DNA of 64,000 nt from Actinopolymorpha singaporensis (GTDB lineage: Bacteria; Actinomycetota; Actinomycetes; Propionibacteriales; Actinopolymorphaceae), in NCBI RefSeq assembly GCF_900104745.1, contig NZ_LT629732.1:3645981-3709980 (forward strand), written 5' to 3'. The notes below the pieces were generated by a model. It made no database searches and was not told the origin of the DNA. It saw only the letters and a program-made list of their open reading frames with translations. The position numbers and the translations under genes are program-made. This document shows positions 18,287 through 31,415 of this stretch, one piece after another (the stretch's first letter is position 1; each line of letters starts with the position of its first letter).

Positions 18287-19129
18287 TCACTCCAGCCTGA
18301 GGAGCTTCAGAGCGGGCTGGTCGATGATCCGCTCAATCTTGTCCGGGTCGAGCGGGGGAAGGCCGGGAATGCCGGGGACCCTGGCAACCGCACGGAGACC
18401 GTCGATGGAGTCGTTCACGGTGGTGAAGGGGTAGTCGCTTCCGAAGAGAAGCTTGTGGGTGACTCCATAGTCCTGGGCGAGCCGGAGGCTGTGCCACAGC
18501 TGGAACGGCCTGTAGTGCAGGGCGGACACGTCGGCGTAGACGTTCTGGTGCTTGCGGATCACGGCGAGGCACTCACCCTCGTACGGGTGGCCCATATGCG
18601 CGAGCACCATGGGTAGCTCGGGGTGCCGGATCGCGACCTCGTCGAGGTGGACTGGCCGGGCCCAGTGAAGCACCGCGGTCGAGACGAAGGTTGTCCCCGT
18701 GTGGACGAGCAGGGGCAGGCCGTGTTCCTCGGCGTAGGCGAAGAGTGGATCGTACGCCGGGTCGGCAGGATCGAAGCCGGCATACATTGGCATCAGTTTG
18801 ATGCCTCGCAGGCCGAGCTCCTGGTGGCCGTAGCGCATCTCGTCCTGCCAGCCGGGCTGGGTCGGGTCGACCGAGAGGTAGCCGATGAGCCGGTCCGGTT
18901 CCCGGGCGACGAGATCGCGGATGGAGGTGTCGTCCACCCAGAGCCCACTGCGCCGTGCCTTGCCGCCGATGACGATCGTGCGGGTGTCGGCCGGGCTGGT
19001 GTTGCGGTAGTGCTCACGGTGTGTCGTAAGGTCCACTTCACCGCCGTGGGCGCGGGCAGACTCGGAGCGGAACGGCTCGCCGATGTGCTCGGCACACCCG
19101 AACGCGTGGCAGTGCACGTCGACGATCAT
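18287..19129 (-). CDS. Amidohydrolase family 2 (metal-dependent TIM-barrel hydrolase/decarboxylase)
   Basis: A 280-residue enzyme. The start is the ATG at 19129, overlapping the previous stop by four bases (ATGA). Metal-site motifs are DVHCHAFG at the N-terminus, the His of PLLVHTGT, the His of VLAHMGHPYEGE and Asp in LLFGSDYPFT, the pattern of the family containing ACMS decarboxylase and sugar-lactone hydrolases. It is the last gene of the four-gene operon. Following an acid-sugar dehydratase, a lactone hydrolysis or decarboxylation step is plausible, but the substrate is not shown by sequence. Confidence 0.87.
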   Translation of the reverse strand: MIVDVHCHAFGCAEHIGEPFRSESARAHGGEVDLTTHREHYRNTSPADTRTIVIGGKARRSGLWVDDTSIRDLVAREPDRLIGYLSVDPTQPGWQDEMRYGHQELGLRGIKLMPMYAGFDPADPAYDPLFAYAEEHGLPLLVHTGTTFVSTAVLHWARPVHLDEVAIRHPELPMVLAHMGHPYEGECLAVIRKHQNVYADVSALHYRPFQLWHSLRLAQDYGVTHKLLFGSDYPFTTVNDSIDGLRAVARVPGIPGLPPLDPDKIERIIDQPALKLLRLE

Positions 19130-20316
19130 GAGCGATCTCGCCTCTCCCAACCTGGGGCGAACATGTTCCAGAAGCCGGACCGTGGAGGGTGTTCTGCGAA
19201 GACGTCGTCGTCGAGCTCGATACCGATGCCAGGCTTGGCCGGCAGCTGGATGCGACCGCTGCTGATCGGCAGGGCGCCTCGCAGAGCGTGGGCGACGTAG
19301 TCCTCCAGCAGACTGTCGAACGTCTCCAGTACGAGAAGTTGTGGCATACCGAGGGCAGCATGGACGGTCGCCGTCGTACAGAACGGCGAGTTCGAGTTGT
19401 GCGGTGCGACCAACATGCCGTGCATCTCCGCAAGAGCTGCGATCTTGCGGATCTCCGTGTAGCCGCCTGCCATGCACAGGTCAGGCTGGATGATGTCGAC
19501 GGCGTCGCTTGCGAACAGGTGTCGGTACTCGTAGCGATTGTGGAAGTGTTCGCCGCCGGCGATCGGCATGGCTGCGCGCAGGCGGAGCTCTGCGTACCGT
19601 TCGATGTGCGTCCACGGCAGGGGTTCCTCGAACCACCCGATGTCGTACGGCTCGAGGTCGCGCACGAGGCGCGAGGCGGTGGGCATGGCAAACCGGGCAT
19701 GCCCTTCGACGAACAGGTCGACATCCGGGCCCACCGCTTCGCGAACCGCGGCCACGATGTCCAGGGAGAGGGTCCGCTCTTCGCGAGACAGCGCCTCAAG
19801 TCCGGTGCCGAAGGGATCGAACTTCAGTGCCGAGAAGCCCCGCCCGACGGTCTCCCGAGCGCGCTTGGCGAACGACTCGGGTGAGCGTTCACCGGTGTAC
19901 CAGCCGTTGGCATAGACCGGAACGCTGTCACGGCACGCTCCGCCGGTAAGGCGGTACACGGGAACCCCCAGAGCCTTCCCCATGATGTCGTGGACGGCCT
20001 GGTCGACTCCGCTGAGTACGATCCCGCCGATGTCACCGCCTCGCAGGAAGTCACCCTGATACATCCGCAGCCATATCTCCTCGACGTCGAAGGGATCGGC
20101 TCCGAGGAGGTGTCGTTCACCCATCGCAACAACCAGGTCGCACGCCTGCTTGCCGCGGTAAGGATGGGTGATCTCACCGACACCGGTGAGCCCCTCGTCG
20201 GTGTGCAGGCGTACGAAGGAGAAGTCCCGCCAGGCCGTGCCGAGCGTCAGGGTCTCGACCCGGCTGATTCGTCCCGCGTGAGTTGTCGGCCGGCTCCTGT
20301 CGACTGTCAGCATCAT
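19126..20316 (-). CDS. Enolase-superfamily acid-sugar dehydratase (mandelate racemase/galactonate dehydratase-like)
   Basis: A 396-residue protein with the capping domain and TIM barrel of the mandelate racemase subgroup. Expected Mg2+ ligands are Glu204 (LFVEGHARF), Glu230 (WFEEPL) and Glu256 (AGGEHFHN). His206 and His306 (PHNSNSP) match the acid/base residues of galactonate-type dehydratases, and Lys165 sits in LKFDPFG. The family abstracts the alpha proton of a carboxylate, usually dehydrating an aldonic acid to a 2-keto-3-deoxy acid. Start and stop overlap the neighbouring genes by ATGA, so translation is coupled. The specific sugar acid is not predictable. Confidence 0.9.
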   Translation of the reverse strand: MMLTVDRSRPTTHAGRISRVETLTLGTAWRDFSFVRLHTDEGLTGVGEITHPYRGKQACDLVVAMGERHLLGADPFDVEEIWLRMYQGDFLRGGDIGGIVLSGVDQAVHDIMGKALGVPVYRLTGGACRDSVPVYANGWYTGERSPESFAKRARETVGRGFSALKFDPFGTGLEALSREERTLSLDIVAAVREAVGPDVDLFVEGHARFAMPTASRLVRDLEPYDIGWFEEPLPWTHIERYAELRLRAAMPIAGGEHFHNRYEYRHLFASDAVDIIQPDLCMAGGYTEIRKIAALAEMHGMLVAPHNSNSPFCTTATVHAALGMPQLLVLETFDSLLEDYVAHALRGALPISSGRIQLPAKPGIGIELDDDVFAEHPPRSGFWNMFAPGWERRDRS

Positions 20317-21683
20317 CGGGTCACCCCACCCATGGTCCTCGCGACGCCGGCCTCCTCGACCCCGTCGAACTGCAGCGTCTCGAGCACAGCTTCGCGGGTT
20401 GCCTCGAGGAGCCGATCGACGTCGTCGTCGGTGTGGGCGTACGACACATGGCTGCGCTTGAGTTCGAGAGGGAGTTCGAAGACGCCACGCTTCACCAGTC
20501 GACGGCGGTACCCGACGAACAGATCCCCACGGTTTGCCAGTAGGTCTTCGTAGCTTCGCGGCACTCCGCCGGACATGAAGTACGTCACGAAGATGGAGCC
20601 GTACCCAGTGACAACGGCTGGTACTCCGATCTCGGCGTACAGGTCGCGCAGCGCAGTTCGGATGCGCCCGCCGAGTCCGAAGATGTGCTCGTGAACCGGC
20701 TCGTTGCGTAGCTTCGTCAGCGTGGCGACCGCCGCCGCAACCACGGCCGGCGCCCCGTTGTAGGTACCCGCGAAGAACGCCGGTCCGCCCGGGCGCGAGC
20801 TGAACATGTCCATGAGGTCCGCTCGCCCGCCGATGGCGCCGATCGGATAGCCGTTCGCGATCGCCTTGCCCAGGGTCGTCAGGTCGGGAGTGACCCCTGA
20901 AATCCGTTGCCAGCCTCCCAGGTCATGCCGGAACCCTGTGATCACTTCGTCGAAGACCAACACACTGCCGTGCTTCTGGGTTGCTTCGCGGAGGGTCTGC
21001 AGGAAGGAAGGCGTAGGCAGCAGACATCCCACGTTGTGCGGAACGGGCTCGACGATGACGGCCGCGATGTCTCTTCCGTGGGCCTCGAACGTCCTACGCA
21101 CCGCATCCTCGTCGTTGAAGGGCAGCACCAGTGTGGCTTCGAGCACCTCGGGGAGAATCCCGGCAGAGATCGGGTCGTGGCGCCCCACACGCCCGGGAGC
21201 GGAGATGACGTTGAGGCTTACCGAGTCGTGCCATCCGTGGTAGCAGCCTTGGAACTTCACCACCAGACGGCGCCCGGTCGCGGCTCGTGCCACCCGAAGG
21301 GCATGGAAAGTAGCCTCGCTTCCGGTACTCGTCAGGAGGGCCTTTTCGATGCTCGGCACCAGGTCGACGAGGACTTCTGCCAGTTGCACCTCTGCGTCGG
21401 TCACACCGACGCCGCACAGGTCGACAGTCCGGGCGGCGTGGGCGACCGCGGCCGCCACGTCAGGATCGTTGTGCCCGAGGATCGGAGGCCCGAACGCAGC
21501 GTGGAAGTCGATGTACTCCTTCCCGGTATCGTCCTGGAACCGGGAACCTCTGGCGCGGGTGATCACGAGGTCTTCGAGGCCCGGGATGGAACGCTGACCG
21601 CTGTTCACACCGCCCGGCATGACCGAACGCGCCCGTGCGGCGGTCGACTCGGACACCCCTCGACCCGAACAGGAGCTTGCCAT
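20313..21683 (-). CDS. Class III aminotransferase, glutamate-1-semialdehyde aminomutase-like
   Basis: A 456-residue PLP enzyme of fold type I. Signatures are PGGVNSGQRSIPG, STGSEATFHALRVARAATGR, VLVFDEVITGFR (Asp binding the pyridine nitrogen) and Lys273 in LTTLGKAIANGYPIGAIGG, which forms the Schiff base. Sequence resembles HemL, but HemL normally lies with haem genes; here it sits in a catabolic operon, so it more likely moves or removes an amino group on a pathway intermediate. GAAGGGATCCAGG precedes the ATG. It overlaps the dehydratase start by four bases and follows the Gfo/Idh gene by 48 bases. Confidence 0.9.
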   Translation of the reverse strand: MASSCSGRGVSESTAARARSVMPGGVNSGQRSIPGLEDLVITRARGSRFQDDTGKEYIDFHAAFGPPILGHNDPDVAAAVAHAARTVDLCGVGVTDAEVQLAEVLVDLVPSIEKALLTSTGSEATFHALRVARAATGRRLVVKFQGCYHGWHDSVSLNVISAPGRVGRHDPISAGILPEVLEATLVLPFNDEDAVRRTFEAHGRDIAAVIVEPVPHNVGCLLPTPSFLQTLREATQKHGSVLVFDEVITGFRHDLGGWQRISGVTPDLTTLGKAIANGYPIGAIGGRADLMDMFSSRPGGPAFFAGTYNGAPAVVAAAVATLTKLRNEPVHEHIFGLGGRIRTALRDLYAEIGVPAVVTGYGSIFVTYFMSGGVPRSYEDLLANRGDLFVGYRRRLVKRGVFELPLELKRSHVSYAHTDDDVDRLLEATREAVLETLQFDGVEEAGVARTMGGVTR

Positions 21684-21731: not shown

Positions 21732-22886
21732 TCATGCCAGCGGACTTTCCGTGCCGGGTTCGGTGCCGATGCCGGCGGTGAATTTCGTCGGGTCGGGTAC
21801 GGCAGTCCAGGTGCCGCCCTGGTGGATGGAGGTCTCGGACACGATTCCGGGGAGGGTCATGTTCAGGGCGGCGTAGACGTCGACGGGTATCGAATCCTCT
21901 GGCGGCAGTCCCTCGCGTACGGTTTCGATGAAGTCGAGGATCGGCCAGGCGTCCGAACCCCAGTGCCCTGCGCTGGTTGGTGGTTGTGTGTAGCGGGCGG
22001 GTAGGAAGTCGGTGGCGTAGGTCTCCAGCGGTTCCCACGCGCCCTGGGCGCTGCGCCCCCGCACGTACACCCGCGGGGCCTGATCTGTCGCCCGTGCGGC
22101 CTCGTAGGCGCCGGTTGTTCCCTGGAGGGAGTAGTAGTCCATCAGGTGTGGCCGGTTGGAGAGCATGTCGAGCCGTGCGCGCAGTAGGGCGCCGCGGCGG
22201 GTGCGGGCGAGTAGGAGCACGGTGTCGTCGATCTCGTGCTCGGGTGCGGTGTGGTTTCCCGTGCCCACACAGCTGACGGAGACGATGCGGTCGTCGAACC
22301 ACTGCAACAGCGGGCCGAGGCTGTGGGTGGGGTAGGTGAATCCGTTGCGGCCTGCCTGCCAGTACGACCGCCAACTGCGTTGCCCGCTTGGCGTGCGCTG
22401 CAGGTCGCGGACGTCGTGGAGGTATTCGCCCTCGCCGTAGTAGAGGTCGCCGAAGACGCCGGCCCTGGCCATCGACCGGACGATGAGGTTGGCGCGGATG
22501 TAGCAGTAGTTCTCCGCCATGGCGTAGGTGGCGGTGCTCCCGCGGACGGCACCGACGAGCGCCTCACTCTGCGGCAGGCTCACGGCGGCGGGTACCTCCG
22601 ACAGCACGTGTACGCCGGCTTCGAGCGCGGCGATGGCCTGGGGCGCGTGGTGGTGTTGCGGTGAGGAGAGCACCACGGCGTCGACGCGTTCGAGCAGCTC
22701 CTCGAAACTCGTGCAGGCGGCCGGTACGTCGTGTTCTCGGGAGAAGCGTTCCACCGCGGAGGGATCCGGGTCGTAGACGGCTTCCAGCCGAGCCGTCCCG
22801 GTCGATTCCGCCGCCCGAACCCCGGCAACGAAACCGGCGCCTCGTGCGGCTCCGGCAATGCCAATCCGAAGTGAGTCTCCGCTCAT
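21732..22886 (-). CDS. Gfo/Idh/MocA-family NAD(P)-dependent oxidoreductase
   Basis: A 384-residue protein from the ATG at 22886, preceded by GAAGGA. The N-terminal Rossmann fold starts LRIGIAGAARGAGFVAG; VVLSSPQHHHAPQAIAALEA and HVLSEVPAA are the cofactor-domain motifs, with the usual EKP signature changed to EVP (Lys replaced by Val). The C-terminal domain carries YYGEGEYLHDVRDL and HSLGPLLQW. The family oxidises or reduces sugars, inositols or amino sugars. The missing lysine, catalytic in many members, suggests altered chemistry. It heads the four-gene operon and has a candidate IclR site 160 bases upstream. Confidence 0.88.
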   Translation of the reverse strand: MSGDSLRIGIAGAARGAGFVAGVRAAESTGTARLEAVYDPDPSAVERFSREHDVPAACTSFEELLERVDAVVLSSPQHHHAPQAIAALEAGVHVLSEVPAAVSLPQSEALVGAVRGSTATYAMAENYCYIRANLIVRSMARAGVFGDLYYGEGEYLHDVRDLQRTPSGQRSWRSYWQAGRNGFTYPTHSLGPLLQWFDDRIVSVSCVGTGNHTAPEHEIDDTVLLLARTRRGALLRARLDMLSNRPHLMDYYSLQGTTGAYEAARATDQAPRVYVRGRSAQGAWEPLETYATDFLPARYTQPPTSAGHWGSDAWPILDFIETVREGLPPEDSIPVDVYAALNMTLPGIVSETSIHQGGTWTAVPDPTKFTAGIGTEPGTESPLA

Positions 22887-23278
22887 CGTCCATTTCCTTC
22901 GCGGGCCGGGGTCCGAAGTAGGAGAACGTCTCAAGTGCCGTCTGCTGGGAGGACCCACAAGGTCTCCGGCTCAGCCATTGCGTCCCCGAGCAGCGACGGG
23001 AGGAGTCGATCCGTCGCCTACGAGGGCTATCCCCACGCCAGAGACCTTCGCTGAGTGGAGGGGATCTCCATTCATTGGGTGCGCCCATTCATGCATGATC
23101 GAGCAAGGGGGGTCAAGGAGATCGCGAGCCCGTTCCGGAGACGGTCAGTTGGAGCCTTCATCCATCCCCACCAATGTGACTCCCTCCTGGCCAAGAAGAC
23201 GTGAGGGTCGTCCGGGCCCGACTACTGGTGGCTGTCAGCCTGTGTTGATGCACCGTGGAACGTGAGGCGGCCGAGAGA
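22887..23278. other. Promoter region of the four-gene operon
   Basis: About 390 bases without a supported gene between the GNAT stop and the Gfo/Idh start. It contains the candidate IclR operator at 23048-23060 and AT-richer sequence around 23065-23105 suitable for a promoter. No terminator hairpin was obvious. Confidence 0.45.
23048..23060. promoter_or_regulatory. Candidate IclR operator upstream of the operon
   Basis: TTCGCTGAGTGGA fits the imperfect palindrome shared with sites before the IclR gene and the FAD oxidase (consensus TYCRCT-S-AGYGRA). It lies 160 bases upstream of the Gfo/Idh start. Confidence 0.5.
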
Positions 23279-23917
23279 TCAGTGGCCGACGCCTTGACAG
23301 CCGAGCCATTCCTTCGGTGTGAACGGGACCTTGAGTTGGGTGCAGATGGTTCGCCAACGCTCCAGCATGCCTTCGGCCCAAAGGTGCGGAACGAAGCCGA
23401 CCTCGAGATAGGACTTCAGTGCAGGGAGTCGGAAGTCATCGGTTTGGAGGTAGATGCACCTTGCGCCGGCCTCCAGGAGTCGGGCTGTCGCGACCGCGGT
23501 GATGATCCGGCCCAGACCATGCCCGGCGTGGTCTGGGCTCGCAGCGATCCAGCCCACTTCGTAGCCCTCTGGGTACAGGTCTTCGACCGGCCGATGATGC
23601 CCCATGCAAGTGGCCACGAGTTGGTCGCTTGCCTCGTGGACGACCACGGTCCATCCGCCTGGAACCACTGTCGTGGTCCAGTGCAGGACCTTCTCGTCGT
23701 CCCATGTACCCAGCCCGACCCGTGTCATCAGGCGCAGGAAAGCCTCGGCGTCGTCATCGCCGCCACCTCGCAGTTGGTACCCACGGGGCGCGTGCATCAG
23801 TGCGCCGGCTGGTCGGAGGCCGGCCGGCCAGAGCATACGCAACTGGCGGTACGGAGGTTCGTCTGCGGGCGCGACGGATCCGGGCTCAGGAGGAGCGTCG
23901 GACTCTTCAGATGTCAC
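23279..23917 (-). CDS. GNAT family N-acetyltransferase
   Basis: A 212-residue acetyltransferase. The acetyl-CoA-binding motif A is GWIAASPDHAGHGLGRIITA (pyrophosphate loop HAGHGLGR); the following RLLEAGARCIYLQTDDFR and ALKSYLEVGFVPHLW form motif B. The first 50 residues are proline/acidic-rich and may be disordered. It begins three bases after the IclR stop, so the two genes are co-transcribed. Acetylation of an amine arising in the neighbouring pathway is possible but not shown. Confidence 0.85.
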   Translation of the reverse strand: MTSEESDAPPEPGSVAPADEPPYRQLRMLWPAGLRPAGALMHAPRGYQLRGGGDDDAEAFLRLMTRVGLGTWDDEKVLHWTTTVVPGGWTVVVHEASDQLVATCMGHHRPVEDLYPEGYEVGWIAASPDHAGHGLGRIITAVATARLLEAGARCIYLQTDDFRLPALKSYLEVGFVPHLWAEGMLERWRTICTQLKVPFTPKEWLGCQGVGH

Positions 23918-23920
23918 GGC

Positions 23921-24718
23921 TCACCTCGTCTCGTGTCGTGCTGGCTGGTAGTCGAGAAGGGCTTCCAGGAGCTGAGCCTGAGCTTGGAGGGCCAGGCCGG
24001 TCTCATGAACCCGGTGGTGGGGGAGACGGTAGCTGGGTGCGCTGACACTGATCGCATAGCGCGCTGTTCCGCTCGCATCACGTATGGGTACGGCCACGCA
24101 ACGAAGTCCTTCGACCGATTCCTCGTCATCGACCGCATAGCCGCGTTCGCGGATTTTCGCGAGTTCGCGGTGGAGGTCGTCGAGCCCGATCAGGGTGCGG
24201 TGAGTGAGTTCTGCCAACTCGTGTTCGAGCAGGATCCTCTCGGCGTCGGCCGCCGCCAGGGTACTGAGAATGGCCTTGCCGAGTCCCGAAGCGTGCCAGT
24301 TGTCCGTGTCTCCGATACTGGCGCCCTTCCGGATCTGCTGTGAGCTCTCCAGAGCGTGGACGATGACCAGGTCGTCGCCGGCCTTCGCGCCGAGATTCAC
24401 CGTCTCGTCCAGTTCCTGGACCAGCCGGGCCATGACTGCTGTGGCGGCGCCCATGAAGTCGCGCGTCCCGATCGCGGCGCGCCCGAGCATGAACATCCGA
24501 AGCCCGATGCGGTACTGACGACTCACCGGGTCACGCTCGAGGAGCCCGTGAGAAACGAGGCTCCCGAGATAGCGGAACGTGGTCGCATCACTCAGACCCG
24601 CCTCCGACGCGACCCGGGACAGCGGCGCCGGCCCAGCAGCCAGGACCTCGATCAGTCGGACGACCCGGTCGACACCCTGAAGCCCGCGATCCTCGCGAGA
24701 GTCCGCAACTTTTGCCAC
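23921..24718 (-). CDS. IclR family transcriptional regulator
   Basis: A 265-residue regulator. The winged helix-turn-helix is at about 14-75 (VDRVVRLIEVLAAG, then LSRVASEAGLSDATTFRYLG); the IclR effector domain follows (VMARLVQELDETVNLGAKAG, HASGLGKAILSTL, and YAVDDEESVEGLRCVAVPI). Such proteins sense small aromatic or sugar-derived acids. A palindrome matching those before the catabolic operon and the FAD oxidase lies 17 bases upstream of its start, consistent with autoregulation and control of the whole locus. It is followed by the GNAT gene. Confidence 0.92.
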   Translation of the reverse strand: MAKVADSREDRGLQGVDRVVRLIEVLAAGPAPLSRVASEAGLSDATTFRYLGSLVSHGLLERDPVSRQYRIGLRMFMLGRAAIGTRDFMGAATAVMARLVQELDETVNLGAKAGDDLVIVHALESSQQIRKGASIGDTDNWHASGLGKAILSTLAAADAERILLEHELAELTHRTLIGLDDLHRELAKIRERGYAVDDEESVEGLRCVAVPIRDASGTARYAISVSAPSYRLPHHRVHETGLALQAQAQLLEALLDYQPARHETR

Positions 24719-24734
24719 TGATGCCTCCTCTGCT

Positions 24735-24747
24735 TCTACTCAGCGAA
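24735..24747. promoter_or_regulatory. Candidate IclR operator at its own promoter
   Basis: TCTACTCAGCGAA lies immediately upstream of the IclR start codon. It is an imperfect palindrome centred on C at 24741. Its reverse complement, TTCGCTGAGTAGA, differs at one position from the site before the Gfo/Idh operon. Confidence 0.5.
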
Positions 24748-24819
24748 AGGAATTTCGGGCCCAGGCTACGGATGAGCACGGAACACCAGCGGCGGTGGGT
24801 GCCTTCGGAGCTAGGTGGT

Positions 24820-25539
24820 CTACCGGTCGGTGACCTTCGCGTCACCCCGGACGTACGTGAGTGCGAGGCCTCGCCGACGATGCGGGGTGGTGTTGGGCGC
24901 GCTGCCGTGGACGGTGCAGCTGTGGTGGAAACTCACGCCTCCAGGGGGCAGGACCACTGGAACGGCAGAGGTGAGGTCGACGCCCAGTACGTGCAGCAGG
25001 TGGTCACCTCCAGGCTCGTGGGGTAGGACGCCACCCTTGTGGGACCCAGGCACCATCCGCACGCAGCCGTTGTCCTCTGTGACGTTGTCTATCGCCACCC
25101 AGCAGGTGACGATCGCGGGTGGGTCGATCCATGGTTCGACGTTGGTCCAGTAGCCGCTGTCCTGGTGCCACGAGACGTGCGACCCATGGAAGGCAGGCTT
25201 CATCAGCACCTGGTCCTGTAGGTAGTGAACGTCCTCGGTCTGCATCAGTTGCCGTGTCACGTCCAGGATCTGCGGGTGCTGCGCGATCGACGCGATAACG
25301 TCGTCGGCCTGCGCCGCCATCATCAACTGCCAGACCTTGTCGCGACGGGACACACCCTCCAGGGTCGCCGCCGCCGTTTCCATTCGGACGGAGACCTTGG
25401 CCGCATCGCCTTCGGCCGACGCCAGGGCGTCGATCCGATCGCCCACAGTCGTGACCTCCTCCGGGGAAAGAAGAGGCCCATAGACGAGGAAGCCATCCTC
25501 GCGGAATCGTTCGCACTGCTCTGGTGTCAGCGTTGGCAT
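24820..25539 (-). CDS. Phytanoyl-CoA dioxygenase (PhyH) family protein
   Basis: A 239-residue non-heme Fe(II)/2-oxoglutarate-type oxygenase. The ATG at 25539 follows GGAGGA. The facial triad is His125 and Asp127 in SWHQDSGYW and His211 in CTVHGSAPN; GCVRMVPGSHKGG is the usual substrate-lid motif. Bacterial members hydroxylate diverse small molecules, so phytanoyl-CoA is not implied. The start lies one base after the stop of the FAD oxidase gene; the two are translationally coupled and probably act in sequence on the same compound. Confidence 0.9.
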   Translation of the reverse strand: MPTLTPEQCERFREDGFLVYGPLLSPEEVTTVGDRIDALASAEGDAAKVSVRMETAAATLEGVSRRDKVWQLMMAAQADDVIASIAQHPQILDVTRQLMQTEDVHYLQDQVLMKPAFHGSHVSWHQDSGYWTNVEPWIDPPAIVTCWVAIDNVTEDNGCVRMVPGSHKGGVLPHEPGGDHLLHVLGVDLTSAVPVVLPPGGVSFHHSCTVHGSAPNTTPHRRRGLALTYVRGDAKVTDR

Positions 25540-25540
25540 C

Positions 25541-26815
25541 TCAGTCCTCCGGTGATGCTGCGGGAACTGCCCGTTCAAGGTCCGGGACTTCGGGTCTGTC
25601 GTGGAACGCGATGAGCTCTCCACGCTCGAACCTCCCGGCGTCGAGTGGAGTGATGTCGATTCGTTCGGGGCGTCCGAGTACGTCCGAGAGGTCGATGTCG
25701 CCTCGCCCCTCGACCATGAGTGCACGGATGGTGCGGGCCACACCCGCGTGGCAGGTGATGCCGTGGCCGTTCATGCCCACGGCGTGCCAAAGGTTCCGGA
25801 CCACTCCGTCGCGGGAGACGATGGGAAAGCCGTCCTCTGTGGTCCCGTACACACAACACCAGCCGTTCAGGAACTCGCTCTTCGGCAGATGCCAGTAGCG
25901 GCGGTAGACGTCGGCGACATCCGCGGGGTAATCGTCGTCGTTCACCCTGTTGGCGTTGTCAGGGTCGACGGTGAAGCCGGGCTTGGTCATGTGGTGGTGC
26001 TGGCCGAACAGGAACGTTCCACCCTCTTCTCCGCGGCACCACACTCCTTCACCTCTGACCTGCTCGGGTACTCCGGTCAGCGGTCCGCTCTCTATGCCGT
26101 CATCGAAGGCGGTTGCCACGCAGACCTGGATACGTTGGGGCGTCAACGCGAGCTTCCGCCCAGCCAGAGCCGCCACCTTCGCGCCCCAAGGCCCGCCGGC
26201 GTTGAGAACTTCTCCCACATTCCATGCACCGCGGCGGGTCACCACCGTAGCTATCCGATCTCCGTCCGTTCGCAACTGGAGTACCGGTGTGCCATGTAGG
26301 ACCTCGACCCGGCCCGTGTCGACAGCAAGTCGCTCGTAGAGATTGACGAGGCGGTAGGGATTGACAAAGCCGTGATTCGGATAGACGGCACCGCCGAGCA
26401 CCCGGTCCGGTTTGATCCAAGGGAAGCGGCGAAGCAACTCGTCCCGGTCGAGGACCTCGCGGTGGTACAGGCTGTCGGGCCTGTCTGGGCCGAACCTGGT
26501 CGCGAAGGGATCCTGCAGAGGAGGAAAAGTGTTGCCCTCGTAATAGACCGCCAAGGATCCCCAGGGATGGAAGCCGATGTCGTAGCGACGTCTGAGCTCC
26601 CGGACCCGCGCGTCGCCCAGGAGTGTGTAGGCCGCGTAGATGTCGTGGAAGTCGCACAGACACAGGACACCCGCAGACCCTCCCGTGGTGCCGGACGCGG
26701 GTACCGACTTGTCGAAGACGACGATCCGCGCCGAGGTCGCCTGGGCGAGCTCGTAGGCGGCCGACAGACCGATGACGCCGCCTCCGATGACCGCGATGTC
26801 GGCGTTGGCAGTCAT
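25541..26815 (-). CDS. FAD-dependent oxidoreductase of the D-amino-acid/sarcosine oxidase (DAO) family
   Basis: A 424-residue flavoprotein. The ATG at 26815 has AAGGAG upstream. The dinucleotide-binding motif is IAVIGGGVIGLSAAYELAQ, followed by an acidic residue at the second strand end (VVFDKS), and VLNAGGPWGAKVAALAGRKL and AVGMNGHGITCHAGVARTIR are the FAD-domain signatures of this family. It should oxidise a C-N bond of a secondary or primary amine, for example an N-methyl or N-carboxymethyl amino acid. It is the first gene of a pair with PhyH and diverges from the ABC importer. A tandem IclR-type site precedes it. Confidence 0.88.
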   Translation of the reverse strand: MTANADIAVIGGGVIGLSAAYELAQATSARIVVFDKSVPASGTTGGSAGVLCLCDFHDIYAAYTLLGDARVRELRRRYDIGFHPWGSLAVYYEGNTFPPLQDPFATRFGPDRPDSLYHREVLDRDELLRRFPWIKPDRVLGGAVYPNHGFVNPYRLVNLYERLAVDTGRVEVLHGTPVLQLRTDGDRIATVVTRRGAWNVGEVLNAGGPWGAKVAALAGRKLALTPQRIQVCVATAFDDGIESGPLTGVPEQVRGEGVWCRGEEGGTFLFGQHHHMTKPGFTVDPDNANRVNDDDYPADVADVYRRYWHLPKSEFLNGWCCVYGTTEDGFPIVSRDGVVRNLWHAVGMNGHGITCHAGVARTIRALMVEGRGDIDLSDVLGRPERIDITPLDAGRFERGELIAFHDRPEVPDLERAVPAASPED

Positions 26816-27173
26816 CGCCGTCTCCTTTCCACTCAGTGGAGAGCTGTCTTGCTGAGTGGTTGCATCAAACTCTCGCCTATGGGAGTCGTCAAGATCGGGG
26901 ACCCGTTTCGGCGACCCTGAATGGCGAGCCGGCGGCGATGTCGCCTCCGGCGGAACCCCTGCATCTTGCTGCGGCGGGCTCTTGCTGACCCCGGGACGTC
27001 GCTGTACGCAGTCGTCGCATGGAGCCTCGGCGCGGGGTGGCAGCAGCCCCTCGCAAGAGGCGTCGCCCTGGCTCTTGCCAGCGCTGCGTACCGGGACTAC
27101 CTTGAGGCCCACTTTCACCGGTTAAAAGTCATCTCCGGTAATCAGAGTTTGGGCGATGCGCCAAGGAGTGGCC
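26816..27173. other. Divergent promoter region, FAD oxidase/ABC importer
   Basis: About 360 bases. Two candidate IclR operators lie at the oxidase end (26828-26861). The rest is GC-rich with no supported gene. The importer promoter is probably within 27050-27160, where the sequence becomes richer in A/T (GGTTAAAAGTCATCTCCGGT). Confidence 0.45.
26828..26861. promoter_or_regulatory. Tandem IclR-type operators, 21 bp apart
   Basis: TCCACTCAGTGGA (26828-26840) is a perfect palindrome around its central C. A second, half-matching copy, TTGCTGAGTGGTT, follows at 26849-26861, centred 21 bases away, two helical turns. Together they create an 8-bp inverted repeat, CCACTCAG/CTGAGTGG. They lie 13 bases upstream of the FAD oxidase start, a repressing position, and could also control the divergent importer. 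Confidence 0.55.
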
Positions 27174-28166
27174 ATGGGTCCAAGGAGCGGCATGGGAACT
27201 GACAACCGGACCAGCCGTCGTCTCAGTCGGCGCCCACGACGCCATGCCACCGCCCGACGGAACCTGCGGAACGGGTTGCTCTTCATCTCTCCGTGGCTCG
27301 TCGGCCTGGTCGTGTTACAGGCATACCCCTTCTTCATGACGGCGTACTACGCCTTCACCGACTTCGACGGACTGAACTTTCCGCCACACTGGATTGGTAC
27401 ACAGAACTTCAGCACGCTCTTCAGAGCCGACCCACAGTTCTGGCCGTCGGTGACGAACACCCTGTGGTGGGTCCTCACCAGCGTGCCGACGTCAATCGTC
27501 GTGGGCGTGCTCCTGGCTCTGCTGCTCAACCGTCGAGTCCGAGGACTCGGAATCTTCCGGACCGTCTTCTACCTTCCGGCGATGGTTCCCTTCGTCGGAG
27601 GATCGGTTCTGTTTCTCTGGCTGTTCAACCCGGCCGGTGGCGCCGTCAACAGCATCTTGGGCGGGCTCGGCTTGGGGAGCCCGGGCTGGTTCTCGGATCC
27701 GGGCTGGGCCAAACCGACACTTCTCCTCCTGCAACTCTGGCAGGTGGGACCCTCGATGATCATCTTCCTGGCCGGCCTTCAGGACATTCCAGCCGAGCTT
27801 TACGAGGCTGCATCGATCGACGGCGCCAGCGCCTTCCGGAAGTTCTGCTACATCACTCTTCCCCTACTGACGCCCGCGATCTTCTTCAACCTCGTGCTCG
27901 GCACCATCTGGGCCTTCAGCTACTTCACCCAGGCCCTCGTAGTCTCGGCCGCGCCCTCCAGCCTCGGCGGCGCCCACGCCCCGGGTGGGCCGGCAGACTC
28001 CACCCTCTTCTACTCGCTGTACCTCTACACCCAGATCTTCCAGAATTTCCGCCTCGGCTACGGGGCGGCCATGAGCCTGCTTCTCACCCTGGTCGTGATC
28101 ATCCTCGCGGCGGTTCTGTTCCGAACCGGAAGGCGGTGGGTTTTCTACTATGATCACCAGGCCTGA
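27174..28166 (+). CDS. Carbohydrate ABC transporter permease 1 (MalF/UgpA-like)
   Basis: A 330-residue inner-membrane permease with six or so helices. The ATG at 27174 is chosen because AAGGAG lies five bases upstream; an in-frame GTG or ATG slightly earlier is less well placed. The EAA loop that contacts the ATPase is ELYEAASIDGASAFRKFCYI followed by TLPLLTP. It forms a heterodimer with the next gene's product and imports the ligand captured by the lipoprotein encoded third. No ATPase gene is present; a shared MsiK-type ATPase elsewhere is usual for actinobacterial sugar importers. Confidence 0.93.
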   Translation: MGPRSGMGTDNRTSRRLSRRPRRHATARRNLRNGLLFISPWLVGLVVLQAYPFFMTAYYAFTDFDGLNFPPHWIGTQNFSTLFRADPQFWPSVTNTLWWVLTSVPTSIVVGVLLALLLNRRVRGLGIFRTVFYLPAMVPFVGGSVLFLWLFNPAGGAVNSILGGLGLGSPGWFSDPGWAKPTLLLLQLWQVGPSMIIFLAGLQDIPAELYEAASIDGASAFRKFCYITLPLLTPAIFFNLVLGTIWAFSYFTQALVVSAAPSSLGGAHAPGGPADSTLFYSLYLYTQIFQNFRLGYGAAMSLLLTLVVIILAAVLFRTGRRWVFYYDHQA

Positions 28167-29064
28167 CGACGCGAGCACTCTGGCGACCGTTCCTCAGCAA
28201 CCACTCCCGCCGGCGCCGGCCCCGGGGAGGCGGCCCGGAGCGCTCATCCGGGCCGGAACGTACGCACTTCTGGTGGCCGCCGCCGTGCCGTTCCTGTTCC
28301 CTGTCTACTGGCTCGCCACCGGCATCTTCAAGCCAAGCAGCACGCTCCTGCAGACACCCCCCGTATGGTGGCCGCCCGCTTGGACCCTGGCCAACTTCCG
28401 ATCCCTCGCCGGCTACACCGATGTCAACCTGGGCGATTACACGCTCAACACCCTCTACATCAGTGGCTTCAGCGTCGTAGCCACCCTGGTCTCTTCGTCG
28501 CTGGTCGCGTACGGGTTCTCCCGCATCAGGTTCACCGGAAGGAATGTGCTCTTCGGCATACTCATCGCGACGATGATCCTCCCGACGTGGGCCACGCTCA
28601 TTCCGCAGTACGTCCTGTTCAAGTGGCTCGGATGGCTCGGAACCTTCAGGCCCCTGACCTGGCCCTACCTTTTCGGCGACCCGTTCACCATCTTCCTCCT
28701 CCGCCAGTTCATGCTGGGAATTCCGTCGGAGCTGACGGAGGCGGCAAAGATCGACGGCGCCAACGAGTTCACGATCTACCTGCGCATCATGCTGCCACTG
28801 CTGAAGCCGGCGCTCACCGTAGGTGCGATCTTCGTGTTCATCAACACGTACAACGACTTCTTCGGGCCGCTGATCTACCTGACCGACTCGGGAAGGTACA
28901 CGCTGTCGCTGGCGGTCTTTCAGTTCGTTCAACTTAGGGGAGCGCCGGACATCGGTGCGATTGTCGCCTTCACCGCTCTGGTGACGACTCCCTTGGTGGT
29001 CCTGTTCTTCTTTGCGCAGCGCATGCTCCTCGCCGGAATCAAGTTGTCCGGCCTCAGGGGCTGA
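28150..29064 (+). CDS. Carbohydrate ABC transporter permease 2 (MalG/UgpE-like)
   Basis: A 304-residue permease overlapping the first by 17 bases, so translation is coupled. After a proline-rich cytoplasmic leader (residues 1-28) come six membrane helices. The EAA motif is ELTEAAKIDGANEFTIYLRI followed by MLPLLKPAL. TYNDFFGPLIYLTDSGRYTL is the conserved periplasmic-side segment of MalG-type partners. It is part of the three-gene importer divergent from the FAD oxidase. Confidence 0.93.
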   Translation: MITRPDDASTLATVPQQPLPPAPAPGRRPGALIRAGTYALLVAAAVPFLFPVYWLATGIFKPSSTLLQTPPVWWPPAWTLANFRSLAGYTDVNLGDYTLNTLYISGFSVVATLVSSSLVAYGFSRIRFTGRNVLFGILIATMILPTWATLIPQYVLFKWLGWLGTFRPLTWPYLFGDPFTIFLLRQFMLGIPSELTEAAKIDGANEFTIYLRIMLPLLKPALTVGAIFVFINTYNDFFGPLIYLTDSGRYTLSLAVFQFVQLRGAPDIGAIVAFTALVTTPLVVLFFFAQRMLLAGIKLSGLRG

Positions 29065-29084
29065 GCAGAAAGAAGGTCCGTCCC

Positions 29085-30479
29085 ATGCGCCGGTTGCACA
29101 TCCTTCTCCTCGCCGGGCTTCTCGCACTCCTCTCCTTGCTTGCCAACTGTGCTCCGTCACAGCAGGCAAAGAGTGAGAGCAATGACCTGACAGCGATGAC
29201 CAACGCGAGTATCTTCGCCGGGCTGACACCGGCCTCCCTCAAGGAGAAAAGCACTATCTCCTCGTGGTATCGCATTTACCACCCTCTCTGGCAGAAGAAG
29301 TTCCCGAAGCTGAAGATAAAGGAGGTCAAGGTCGCCGACGACAATGCTGAGGTCACCAAGACTCTGCTCGCGGTCAACGCGGGCAACCCGCCCGACCTGA
29401 TCGGCGTCCACGGGCAACTTCCGCAACTCGTCAAGCGCGGTGCCGTCGAAAACCTCGACAAGTACTACGAAGCTGCAGGTATCAAGCCCGACTATTTCCT
29501 CAAGCCGCTCGCGGACTATGTGCGCTACGACGGCCATTGGTATGGTCTTCCGGGCGCGAGCAACCCAACCACCGGTACGATTCTTTACGTCCCGAAGGTC
29601 GTTCAGGCGGCTGGTGTGGACCCGAACCACATGCCCAGGACCTGGGACGAGCTGTGGACAGCGACGAAGAAGGTAACCAAGTTCGACGCGAAGGGGAACG
29701 TCCAACGCATCGGCCTTCCTGTGGACACGGGGCTGACCTGGGTCAATCTGTACTGCGGTCGGCAGGTTACCTACGACCAGGCGACAAACAAGTTTCACGC
29801 TGACGACCCGTGCGTGAAGGACTACTTCCGATTCAACAAGCGCCTGGTCGACTTCTACGGCGGAATCCAGAAGTACACGAAGTTCATCAGCGGCGATCAG
29901 ACGGTATGGAACTGCTCGCCGAAAGCCTACATTCCCACCGGGAAGGTTCTGTTCAGCCTCGACGCCTACTGGTCGGGTGCGCAGATGGATACCTGCTACG
30001 ACGTCGTGTGGAAGCTGGCGGCGCCACCGACTCCGCACGGAAAGGCCAGTGAGTGGGCGGCTCTGGCCCCGGTGGCATGGGTGCTTGCGATCCCCCGTGG
30101 AGCTGACAACCCGCAGCTTGCCTTCGACTTCGTGAAGTACACCGTGTGGGAGCACGGCGATCTGCTTGGTCCGACAACGAACGGCTACGTCCGGCCGGAG
30201 CAGGCACAAGCCTGGGGCGACAAGCTCATCGAGACACAGGCGCAGATCCGCAACAAGAACGGCTACGAGGGCAACCCGATGGCAGACGCGATGAAGCTCG
30301 TGACCAAGGGCGCCGAGCTCGGCCGTGCGATCTACCCCAAAGACGCAGCAGCACCCTACTTCTCGGAGCAGATGGCGCGAGCTTGGGAGCAGGTGGCATA
30401 CAACAGGTCTACTGTCGATGATGCTCTGGATCGGGCGCAGAAGCTGATCGAGGCCAACCAGAAGCAGAACGGGTCGTGA
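29085..30479 (+). CDS. Family-1 extracellular solute-binding lipoprotein
   Basis: A 464-residue lipoprotein. Signal peptide MRRLHILLLAGLLALLSLLA with lipobox LANC gives a lipidated Cys at about residue 22. The mature protein has the MalE-type pattern: NAGNPPDLIGVHGQLPQLVK, a WYGLPGASNPTTGTILYV segment and PRTWDELWTATKKVTK. AGAAAGAAGG lies just upstream of the ATG. It supplies the two upstream permeases. The locus enzymes suggest an acidic or amino-containing sugar or an opine-like compound, which is inference. Confidence 0.92.
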   Translation: MRRLHILLLAGLLALLSLLANCAPSQQAKSESNDLTAMTNASIFAGLTPASLKEKSTISSWYRIYHPLWQKKFPKLKIKEVKVADDNAEVTKTLLAVNAGNPPDLIGVHGQLPQLVKRGAVENLDKYYEAAGIKPDYFLKPLADYVRYDGHWYGLPGASNPTTGTILYVPKVVQAAGVDPNHMPRTWDELWTATKKVTKFDAKGNVQRIGLPVDTGLTWVNLYCGRQVTYDQATNKFHADDPCVKDYFRFNKRLVDFYGGIQKYTKFISGDQTVWNCSPKAYIPTGKVLFSLDAYWSGAQMDTCYDVVWKLAAPPTPHGKASEWAALAPVAWVLAIPRGADNPQLAFDFVKYTVWEHGDLLGPTTNGYVRPEQAQAWGDKLIETQAQIRNKNGYEGNPMADAMKLVTKGAELGRAIYPKDAAAPYFSEQMARAWEQVAYNRSTVDDALDRAQKLIEANQKQNGS

Positions 30480-30575
30480 CCCTCGTCCGGGATCGACGCC
30501 GGCTCGATGCTGGCGGCAGCGCGGCTGGACCATCCCGGCGCGCGATGCCGGCCGGGCGTCGGCGATGCTGTGGGC

Positions 30576-31415
30576 GTGGAGTACGTGTCCAGAGTGCCGC
30601 GACCGCCGCTGGACGGGCTGATCGACGACCTTTACTACCTGGAGGGTGCGTCGCCCTACGCCCGGCTGACGCTGCCGCCGATGCCGGCGGCGTTGCTCAT
30701 CGTCAACCTTGGGGCACCGTTTCTCATCCGCGCCGGCACCGACATCGAGACGGCCGAGTACGCCGACGGCTGCGTGGTCACCACGCCCACCCGCGCGTTG
30801 GAGTTCGGCTACCCACTCCGGACCCGGTCCGTCGGCGTGCACTTCAAGCCGTGGGGGCTGGCGCCGTTCCTGCCGATGCCCGCGGCCGAGCGGTGTGACC
30901 GGCCGGTGACGGTGGAGCAGGTTTGGGGCCGGCCCGCCATTGCTGAGCTGCGAGACCAGCTGGCCGCGGCGGACGGACCCCACGAGATGCTGACGCTGCT
31001 CGAGGAGGAGTTGATGCGGCGGCTGTGCCAGACCCCCGGCTTGGGGCTGGTCCGCCAAGCGAGCGGCGTCATCGCGGCGACCGGCGGGGCGGTGGCGATC
31101 GGCGACCTGGGTGTGGCAGCCGGCGTCAGCAGCACTCATCTGGCACAGCGGTTCAAGGAACTCATCGGCGTCACCCCGAAGCGGCTGGCCCGCACCCACC
31201 GGTTCGCCGCCACCGTGTTCGCGATCAACCCCGCCGGACCGATCGACTGGGGCGACCTCGCCGGCAGGGCGGGCTACTTCGACCAGGCTCATTTCGGCCA
31301 CGAGTTCCGGGCGTTCACCGGGCTCACGCCGACCCGGTACATCGAAATCCGGCGGCGGTTCCTGCGCGAACATCCCGGCCACGTAATGGACAGCTGGCCG
31401 CTGCCGGCCGATTGA
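30576..31415 (+). CDS. AraC family transcriptional regulator
   Basis: A 279-residue protein if the GTG at 30576 is the start (VEYVSRVPRPPLDGLID); the frame is open 23 codons further. The N-terminal domain resembles DUF6597/AraC-type sensor regions (IDDLYYLEGASPYARLTLPP, then RALEFGYPLRTRSVGVHFKP). The C-terminal double helix-turn-helix is at about 175-270: IGDLGVAAGVSSTHLAQRFKE and WGDLAGRAGYFDQAHFGHEFR with the closing GLTPTRYIE. It stands 67 bases before the DHFR-like gene, a likely target. Confidence 0.87.
   Translation: MEYVSRVPRPPLDGLIDDLYYLEGASPYARLTLPPMPAALLIVNLGAPFLIRAGTDIETAEYADGCVVTTPTRALEFGYPLRTRSVGVHFKPWGLAPFLPMPAAERCDRPVTVEQVWGRPAIAELRDQLAAADGPHEMLTLLEEELMRRLCQTPGLGLVRQASGVIAATGGAVAIGDLGVAAGVSSTHLAQRFKELIGVTPKRLARTHRFAATVFAINPAGPIDWGDLAGRAGYFDQAHFGHEFRAFTGLTPTRYIEIRRRFLREHPGHVMDSWPLPAD

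Follow-up and report, generated by a model that had tools for sequence, protein, structure and literature searches.

The palindromic motif TYCRCT-S-AGYGRA (TYCRCTSAGYGRA) precedes three transcription units in a 64,000-nucleotide stretch of the Actinopolymorpha singaporensis genome (contig NZ_LT629732.1, positions 3,645,981 to 3,709,980; hereafter the window). These are an operon headed by a Gfo/Idh/MocA oxidoreductase gene (the Gfo/Idh operon), an IclR-family regulator gene, and a flavin adenine dinucleotide (FAD)-dependent oxidoreductase gene with a dioxygenase-like gene (the oxidase unit). From the sequence, the three units are predicted to form a local IclR regulon, a small circuit that is probably genuine though of an ordinary type. 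It was considered highly probable that a local, self-regulating IclR repressor acts through these boxes on both operons and on its own gene. The predicted regulon itself is new; the kind of system is already well described.

All sites were recorded without strand. The main operator boxes of the Gfo/Idh operon (TTCGCTGAGTGGA, 23047–23059) and of the oxidase unit (TCCACTCAGTGGA, 26828–26840) match the pattern exactly, with centres 167 and 19 bp before the respective start codons. The operator at the regulator's own promoter (TCTACTCAGCGAA, 24735–24747; centre 23 bp before the start codon) has one mismatch. These three main sites were the only two exact matches and the only one-mismatch match in the window. 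A second, weak box at the oxidase promoter (CTTGCTGAGTGGT, 26848–26860) has three mismatches with its right half AGTGG intact, and its centre lies 20 bp upstream of that of the main box. All four sequences reported in the original prediction were present on direct checking. The claim that all of them fit the pattern held for 23047 and 26828, and failed by one mismatch at 24735 and by three at the weak oxidase box. Two positions were corrected: the first site, placed at 23048, starts at 23047, and the second oxidase copy, placed 21 bp on at 26849, occupies 26848–26860 at a centre-to-centre distance of 20 bp. A fifth, weak box at the Gfo/Idh operator (TCCATTCATTGGG, 23067–23079; three mismatches), overlooked in that prediction, is also centred 20 bp upstream of its main box.

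The regulator was searched in 8 genomes of the family (E 1e-40) and 293 of the order (1e-55), and by profile (1e-65) in samples of the class (394 genomes) and the phylum (396 genomes), where scoring was confined to a few top candidates in each genome. The four samples overlap, and one scan of genome contigs retained the best 80 of 566 relatives. The IclR proteins compared were 94% (genome G002), 70% (G003), 53–55% (Microlunatus parietis), 45–46% (two Sciscionella species), 47% (G462), and 43% (G309) identical to the regulator. Comparison of the same promoters in related genomes, proposed earlier as a check, located sites at the corresponding promoters of G002, G003, Microlunatus, Sciscionella, and G462. 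All three main sites are kept in G002, the regulator site being identical. In the stretch fetched from G003, where the IclR is accompanied only by dehydratase and Gfo/Idh homologues, TCCACTGAGCGGA precedes the regulator and CTCACTCAGTGAA precedes Gfo/Idh. The latter lies 68 bp from the gene versus 167 bp in the window, so conservation of the site is not mere carry-over from alignment. The site GTCACTGAATGGA lies between the IclR and a divergent enolase-superfamily gene in Microlunatus, TTCAGTCAATGAA lies before the IclR in Sciscionella, and AACGCTCAGTGAA heads an importer-dehydrogenase-IclR-aminotransferase operon in G462.

The cleaner test was the matrix built from the three sites of this genome and applied to the relatives. 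The expected site ranked first in G003 (with the Gfo/Idh site second), Microlunatus, and both Sciscionella loci, and third in G462. In the reverse direction, a matrix from the sites of four relatives ranked the main sites 1, 2, and 5 in the window (24735 being fifth) and the weak box at 23067–23079 seventh; a matrix of all sites placed this box twelfth. With the lineage under test excluded from the matrix, all 12 promoters of the seven motif loci ranked 1–4 among about 16,700–64,000 positions; among the 63988 positions of the window, 26828 ranked first, 23047 second, and 24735 fourth. The number of equally good hits expected in the region was 0.003–0.064 for each of these 12 promoters, with G462 the largest. 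Seven control promoters in five genomes (two each in G001 and G478, one each in G565, G621, and G409) keep the aminotransferase (62–72% identity) beside another IclR or none; all except G409 also hold close dehydratase and amidohydrolase homologues, and one of the two G478 regions precedes a gene of unassigned identity. The controls ranked 10–100, with 0.059–2.0 expected hits. Eight of the fetched loci encode this IclR or a relative that passed the search threshold; the motif was found in seven of them (the exception being G309) and in none of the five control clusters. These ranks indicate, at the level of sequence comparison, that the motif follows the regulator rather than the enzymes. The seven motif-bearing IclR proteins formed one clade in a tree of 29 proteins, with a support of 87/83 that falls short of the 95/80 mark of the tool; deep branches were weak. 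Between this genome and G002, the boxes differed at 5 of 65 columns and the sequence outside them at 168 of 783 (Fisher p 0.0036).

Several of these comparative results weigh against the proposed regulon. The sites of the relatives were first picked with the window-derived pattern, so that the relatives-to-window and leave-one-out matrices are not fully independent. The expected hits of G462 (0.064) were no better than those of the controls G409 (0.059) and G565 (0.084). The weak box at 26848–26860 ranked only 122 in the window with the matrix from four relatives. The lower substitution in the boxes came mostly from the oxidase region (1/26 versus 104/324 outside); in the Gfo/Idh region the boxes changed like their surroundings (4/26 versus 52/371). 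In G002 the box at 23067–23079 differs at 4 of 13 positions, and that at 26848–26860 has one change. In G309, whose IclR passed the profile search, no site was found ahead of that gene, where the best match ranked 214, or within the initial 300 bases of the fetched piece, where it ranked 94; this piece includes 345 N, and the IclR gene lies within a run of same-strand frames.

The motif could be real and be read by another regulator, either another IclR-like protein or a member of another family, the neighbouring IclR being incidental. Six other places in the genome match this IclR, and the motif is family-like: among 75 more distant IclR loci, 10 (1.4 expected) had their best match inside the 230-base interval surrounding the beginning of the IclR match. 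The missing site before the G309 relative points the same way. Against this, the motif precedes this very IclR in G002, G003, Microlunatus, and two Sciscionella loci and heads its operon in G462, and it was not found in G001, G565, and G621, whose enzymes adjoin other IclRs. A different reader was judged quite improbable.

The second boxes suggested a tandem arrangement. The family criterion of centres 18–22 bp apart describes the pairs at 23053/23073 and 26834/26854, which are 20 bp apart each, the second box being weak in both; no such pair was found at the regulator's own promoter. The spacing was spotted by eye before testing. Over eight primary sites, the offset of −20 had the best mean score of all offsets, and none of 2000 base shuffles of the flanks reached this score at any offset. 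The scores at this offset were 8.4 and 9.0 for the two window promoters, 0.6 and 1.0 for the two of G003, −2.3 for Microlunatus, and −2.5 for G462. The arrangement is not uniform, which counts against it: the mean score at −20 remains negative, no upstream box accompanies the site of the regulator itself (−20.0), Sciscionella scores poorly (−12.5), and the upstream boxes in the other loci outside the window are half-sites.

A two-box pattern was found at 13 places in the genome with at most two mismatches, versus 5 for the control. The sole perfect place was the Gfo/Idh promoter, a result partly obtained by construction because the pattern was drawn up after the sites had been seen. The oxidase promoter was one of twelve places with two mismatches, and one of the 13 places is a tRNA-Val gene. 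Among the matches listed for G002, the only perfect one was again the Gfo/Idh promoter, with two one-mismatch places elsewhere; among those listed for G462, the operon-head site was one of eleven with two mismatches. At three mismatches or fewer, the counts in four genomes were at most about twice the control (52 and 49 versus 30 and 33 in this genome).

The motif was also counted across the genome (6.40 Mb, one contig), the outcome on which the original prediction had staked its refutation. The exact palindrome occurred at 4 places, 2 of them inside the window; matches with at most one mismatch occurred at 80 places versus 31 for the reversed pattern and are not specific. The list of the latter covers the first 50 of the 80, and a crude codon score placed 8 of 15 examined places in clearly coding DNA. 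The half pattern CTSARTGRA did not discriminate (23 forward and 24 reverse matches, the control giving 41 and 29). With at most two mismatches, the window contained 24 matches versus 17.7 expected, and 11 of 100 shuffles reached 24, so there is no enrichment. The genome and window counts are partly circular, since the pattern was derived from these very sites of the window. One explanation of the recurrence is chance, with three sites picked by eye in a GC-rich genome rich in near-palindromes, and both the missing enrichment and the 80 places are in keeping with it. It was nevertheless considered extremely unlikely: equivalent promoters in relatives carry top-ranked sites, such sites were not found in clusters lacking this regulator, and the 20-bp spacing recurs. 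Single loose matches lack specificity; the above-chance status of the sites rests on position, conservation in other genomes, and the 20-bp tandem. Of the two exact copies outside the window, that at genome position 2052554 is situated some 70 bases ahead of a helix-turn-helix gene, and that at 3071612 (L002:1501-1513) overlaps a galactokinase stop just before an FGE-sulfatase-like gene. No link of either copy to this gene set was found, and they may still be operators.

Promoter-like hexamers were identified before the oxidase gene on the minus strand (26864–26892): TTGACG (26887–26892), 17 bp, and TTTGAT (26864–26869), with the predicted transcription start inside the upstream box. The TTGACG-17-TTTGAT pair is identical in G002, and shuffled sequences were as good in 4 of 300 cases here and 6 of 300 in G002. 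Similar pairs occur at the G003 Gfo/Idh promoter (11/300) and in G462 (2/300). In six of ten contexts the best pair was of the TTGAC type, with the second hexamer ending 29–36 bp upstream of the main box centre. These positions would put the boxes over the predicted transcription start and beyond it, a place suited to repression, which is thereby suggested. Other observations speak against this placement. The Gfo/Idh hexamers are weak (60/300 shuffles as good here, 72/300 in G002), and the Gfo/Idh operator is centred far from the start codon. The other four contexts were without convincing hexamers, shuffles being as good in 213 of 300 cases for the regulator, 216 for the G003 IclR, and 224 for Microlunatus. 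A promoter-consensus scan, in which the second hexamer must have A as its second base, reported no promoter.

Some IclR-family members act as activators, or activate operons and repress themselves. The IclR might likewise bind these sites and activate, or activate the operons while repressing itself; the unconvincing hexamers of the regulator, G003 IclR, and Microlunatus promoters, which do not place the operator relative to the start, leave room for this. At both oxidase promoters, G003 Gfo/Idh, and G462, however, the 29–36 bp distance (2–11 of 300 shuffles as good) favours repression, and activation was regarded as unlikely.

We infer binding, cooperativity, repression, and a ligand from the sites, their spacing, their conservation, and their co-occurrence with the regulator. 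In the repressor model, the IclR protein (23921–24718) would be a local, self-regulating repressor whose dimer binds the palindrome. At the Gfo/Idh and oxidase promoters, the weaker box 20 bp upstream would accommodate a second dimer on the same DNA face, the two binding cooperatively. Once bound, IclR would cover the transcription starts of both the Gfo/Idh-aminotransferase-dehydratase-amidohydrolase operon and the oxidase-dioxygenase unit; at its own gene it would sit on the leader. It would be released by an intermediate of the compound being catabolised, which probably resembles a sugar acid.

The predicted operators were compared with published ones as far as the part of the survey by Suvorova and Gelfand (2021; PMC8222616) considered here describes them. 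There, group 1 sites of the IclR family read GKTYCRYW3-4RYGRAMC; of 181 groups, 94 have tandem sites 18–22 bp apart, and three-box sites are described for 32 groups. The window sites resemble the WTT-11-AAW subgroup of group 1 in their inverted YCRY/RYGR half-sites with three bases between and in tandem centres 20 bp apart. The group 1 half-sites were present exactly at 23047 and 26828 and with one mismatch at 24735, and the middle base is S (G/C) rather than the published W (A/T). Two of the three main sites, at −23 and −19, lie near the commonest position reported in that part of the survey, −22, whereas the Gfo/Idh site is much farther upstream (167 bp). The three-box operators it describes (PcaU, PobR, and HmgR; 32 orthologous groups) may be similar to the arrangement at G003 Gfo/Idh, Microlunatus, and G462, where a right-facing half-site (AGTGAA, AATGAA) lies upstream of the palindrome at tandem distance; by eye, the upstream pair there reads roughly TGAAA-N5-(inverted half), like group 2 (PMC8222616). 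Unlike these operators as described, the upstream boxes of the window retain parts of both halves, and the regulator's promoter is without an upstream box.

The regulator (23921–24718, minus strand; 265 amino acids, GTG start) belongs to the IclR family, as both its helix-turn-helix domain (Pfam HTH_IclR, 46.6 bits, cut-off 22) and its effector domain (IclR_C, 146.9 bits, cut-off 24) scored above the curated cut-offs. It stayed below the NCBIfam cut-offs for KdgR, AllR, IclR (glyoxylate bypass), and PcaR/PcaU/PobR (123.7–130.8 bits versus 275–406). BhcR was the best NCBIfam match and closest named model (197.7 bits), though far below the equivalog cut-off of 350. The genes controlled here differ from what we take to be the beta-hydroxyaspartate cycle set of BhcR. 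A GNAT acetyltransferase gene (23279–23917, minus strand; Pfam) starts three bases after the regulator and is probably cotranscribed with it.

The two catabolic units also lie on the minus strand. The Gfo/Idh/MocA oxidoreductase gene (21732–22886; Pfam), first in its operon, is followed by genes for a class III aminotransferase (20313–21683), related to glutamate-1-semialdehyde aminomutase and below the cut-offs of those models, an enolase-superfamily sugar-acid dehydratase-like protein (19126–20316; profile matches), and an amidohydrolase family 2 protein (18287–19129; Pfam, scanned as 18287–19216), which by its family might be lactonase-like. The oxidase unit comprises the FAD-dependent oxidoreductase gene of the DAO family (25541–26815; Pfam DAO 188.5 bits) and, one base after it, a phytanoyl-CoA dioxygenase-like gene (24820–25539; Pfam PhyH 130.5 bits). 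The enzyme families suggest that a sugar-like compound may be oxidised to a lactone, followed by ring opening, dehydration, and transamination. Comparison of the enzymes and the importer binding protein with solved structures gave family-level matches only, and no substrate was indicated.

The original prediction had joined the Gfo/Idh operon, the regulator, the oxidase/dioxygenase pair, and, by position, a divergent ABC importer into one regulon. Comparison supported the first three members well; the importer (27156–30479, plus strand; two permeases and a binding protein by profile matches), a putative member, found no support in the window. On its side of the intergenic region (26862–27173), the best motif site ranked only 160, and the boxes, which lie over the oxidase promoter, stop about 300 bp short of the importer's start codon. 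A palindrome at 27112–27128 (CTTTCACCGGTTAAAAG; rank 213) has another sequence. Control of the importer from the same operator would accord with the intergenic region that it shares with the oxidase unit. In G462 an importer with permeases 30–36% identical heads the site-bearing operon, and in G001 an importer follows the oxidase in the same orientation. These importers under or beside a controlled promoter make co-regulation plausible, yet, given the ranks, it was held to be somewhat doubtful. The near-palindrome CTTTCACCGGTTAAAAG before the importer has one change in G002 and may be another regulator's operator. An AraC-family regulator gene (30507–31415) follows the importer; it had no match in the near-identical G002 cluster stretch (L105), which extends some 3 kb past the importer.

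The same enzymes also occur beside other IclR lineages. The congener G001 keeps the oxidase (52% identity) and, following a GNAT gene, the Gfo/Idh, aminotransferase, dehydratase, and amidohydrolase genes (61–72%), and its adjoining IclR (L156:8662-9534) is only 25% identical. Its Gfo/Idh-containing operon and oxidase promoters have a 19-base element in common (ATTCyAAATACAGwAAATA; approximately L156:9613-9631 and L155:9240-9260), in opposite orientations with 17 of 19 bases alike; the alignment score was 30, versus a highest score of 28 in 1000 shuffles. A third IclR lineage (29–31% identical) occurs in G565 and G621 near palindromes of other sequence, noted by inspection alone. In the tree of 29 proteins, the IclRs of G001, G565, and G621 fell in two places outside the motif-bearing clade. 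A strong palindrome beside the G621 IclR (TGTTCTGCTCTACAGAACA, L164:8621-8640) has the look of the published GTT-11-AAC type. An apparent Sciscionella operon (L024:8016-16257) comprises genes for an IclR, an MFS transporter, an epimerase-like dehydrogenase, an aminotransferase, a dehydratase, an amidohydrolase, an SDR, and an FAA hydrolase, and resembles what we take to be a sugar pathway of the oxidative diketo-hydrolase type with an extra aminotransferase. The aminotransferase-dehydratase-amidohydrolase set would thus be paired with at least three IclR lineages, the operators having been exchanged along with the regulator each time and the partner operons staying under common control. This reading rests on few genomes and was slightly favoured.

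With exact predicted operators, this gene set becomes a defined regulon, whose inducer and substrate could be searched for by reporter. The system may further provide a small example of a regulator and its operator being exchanged together, within one family, over conserved enzymes.

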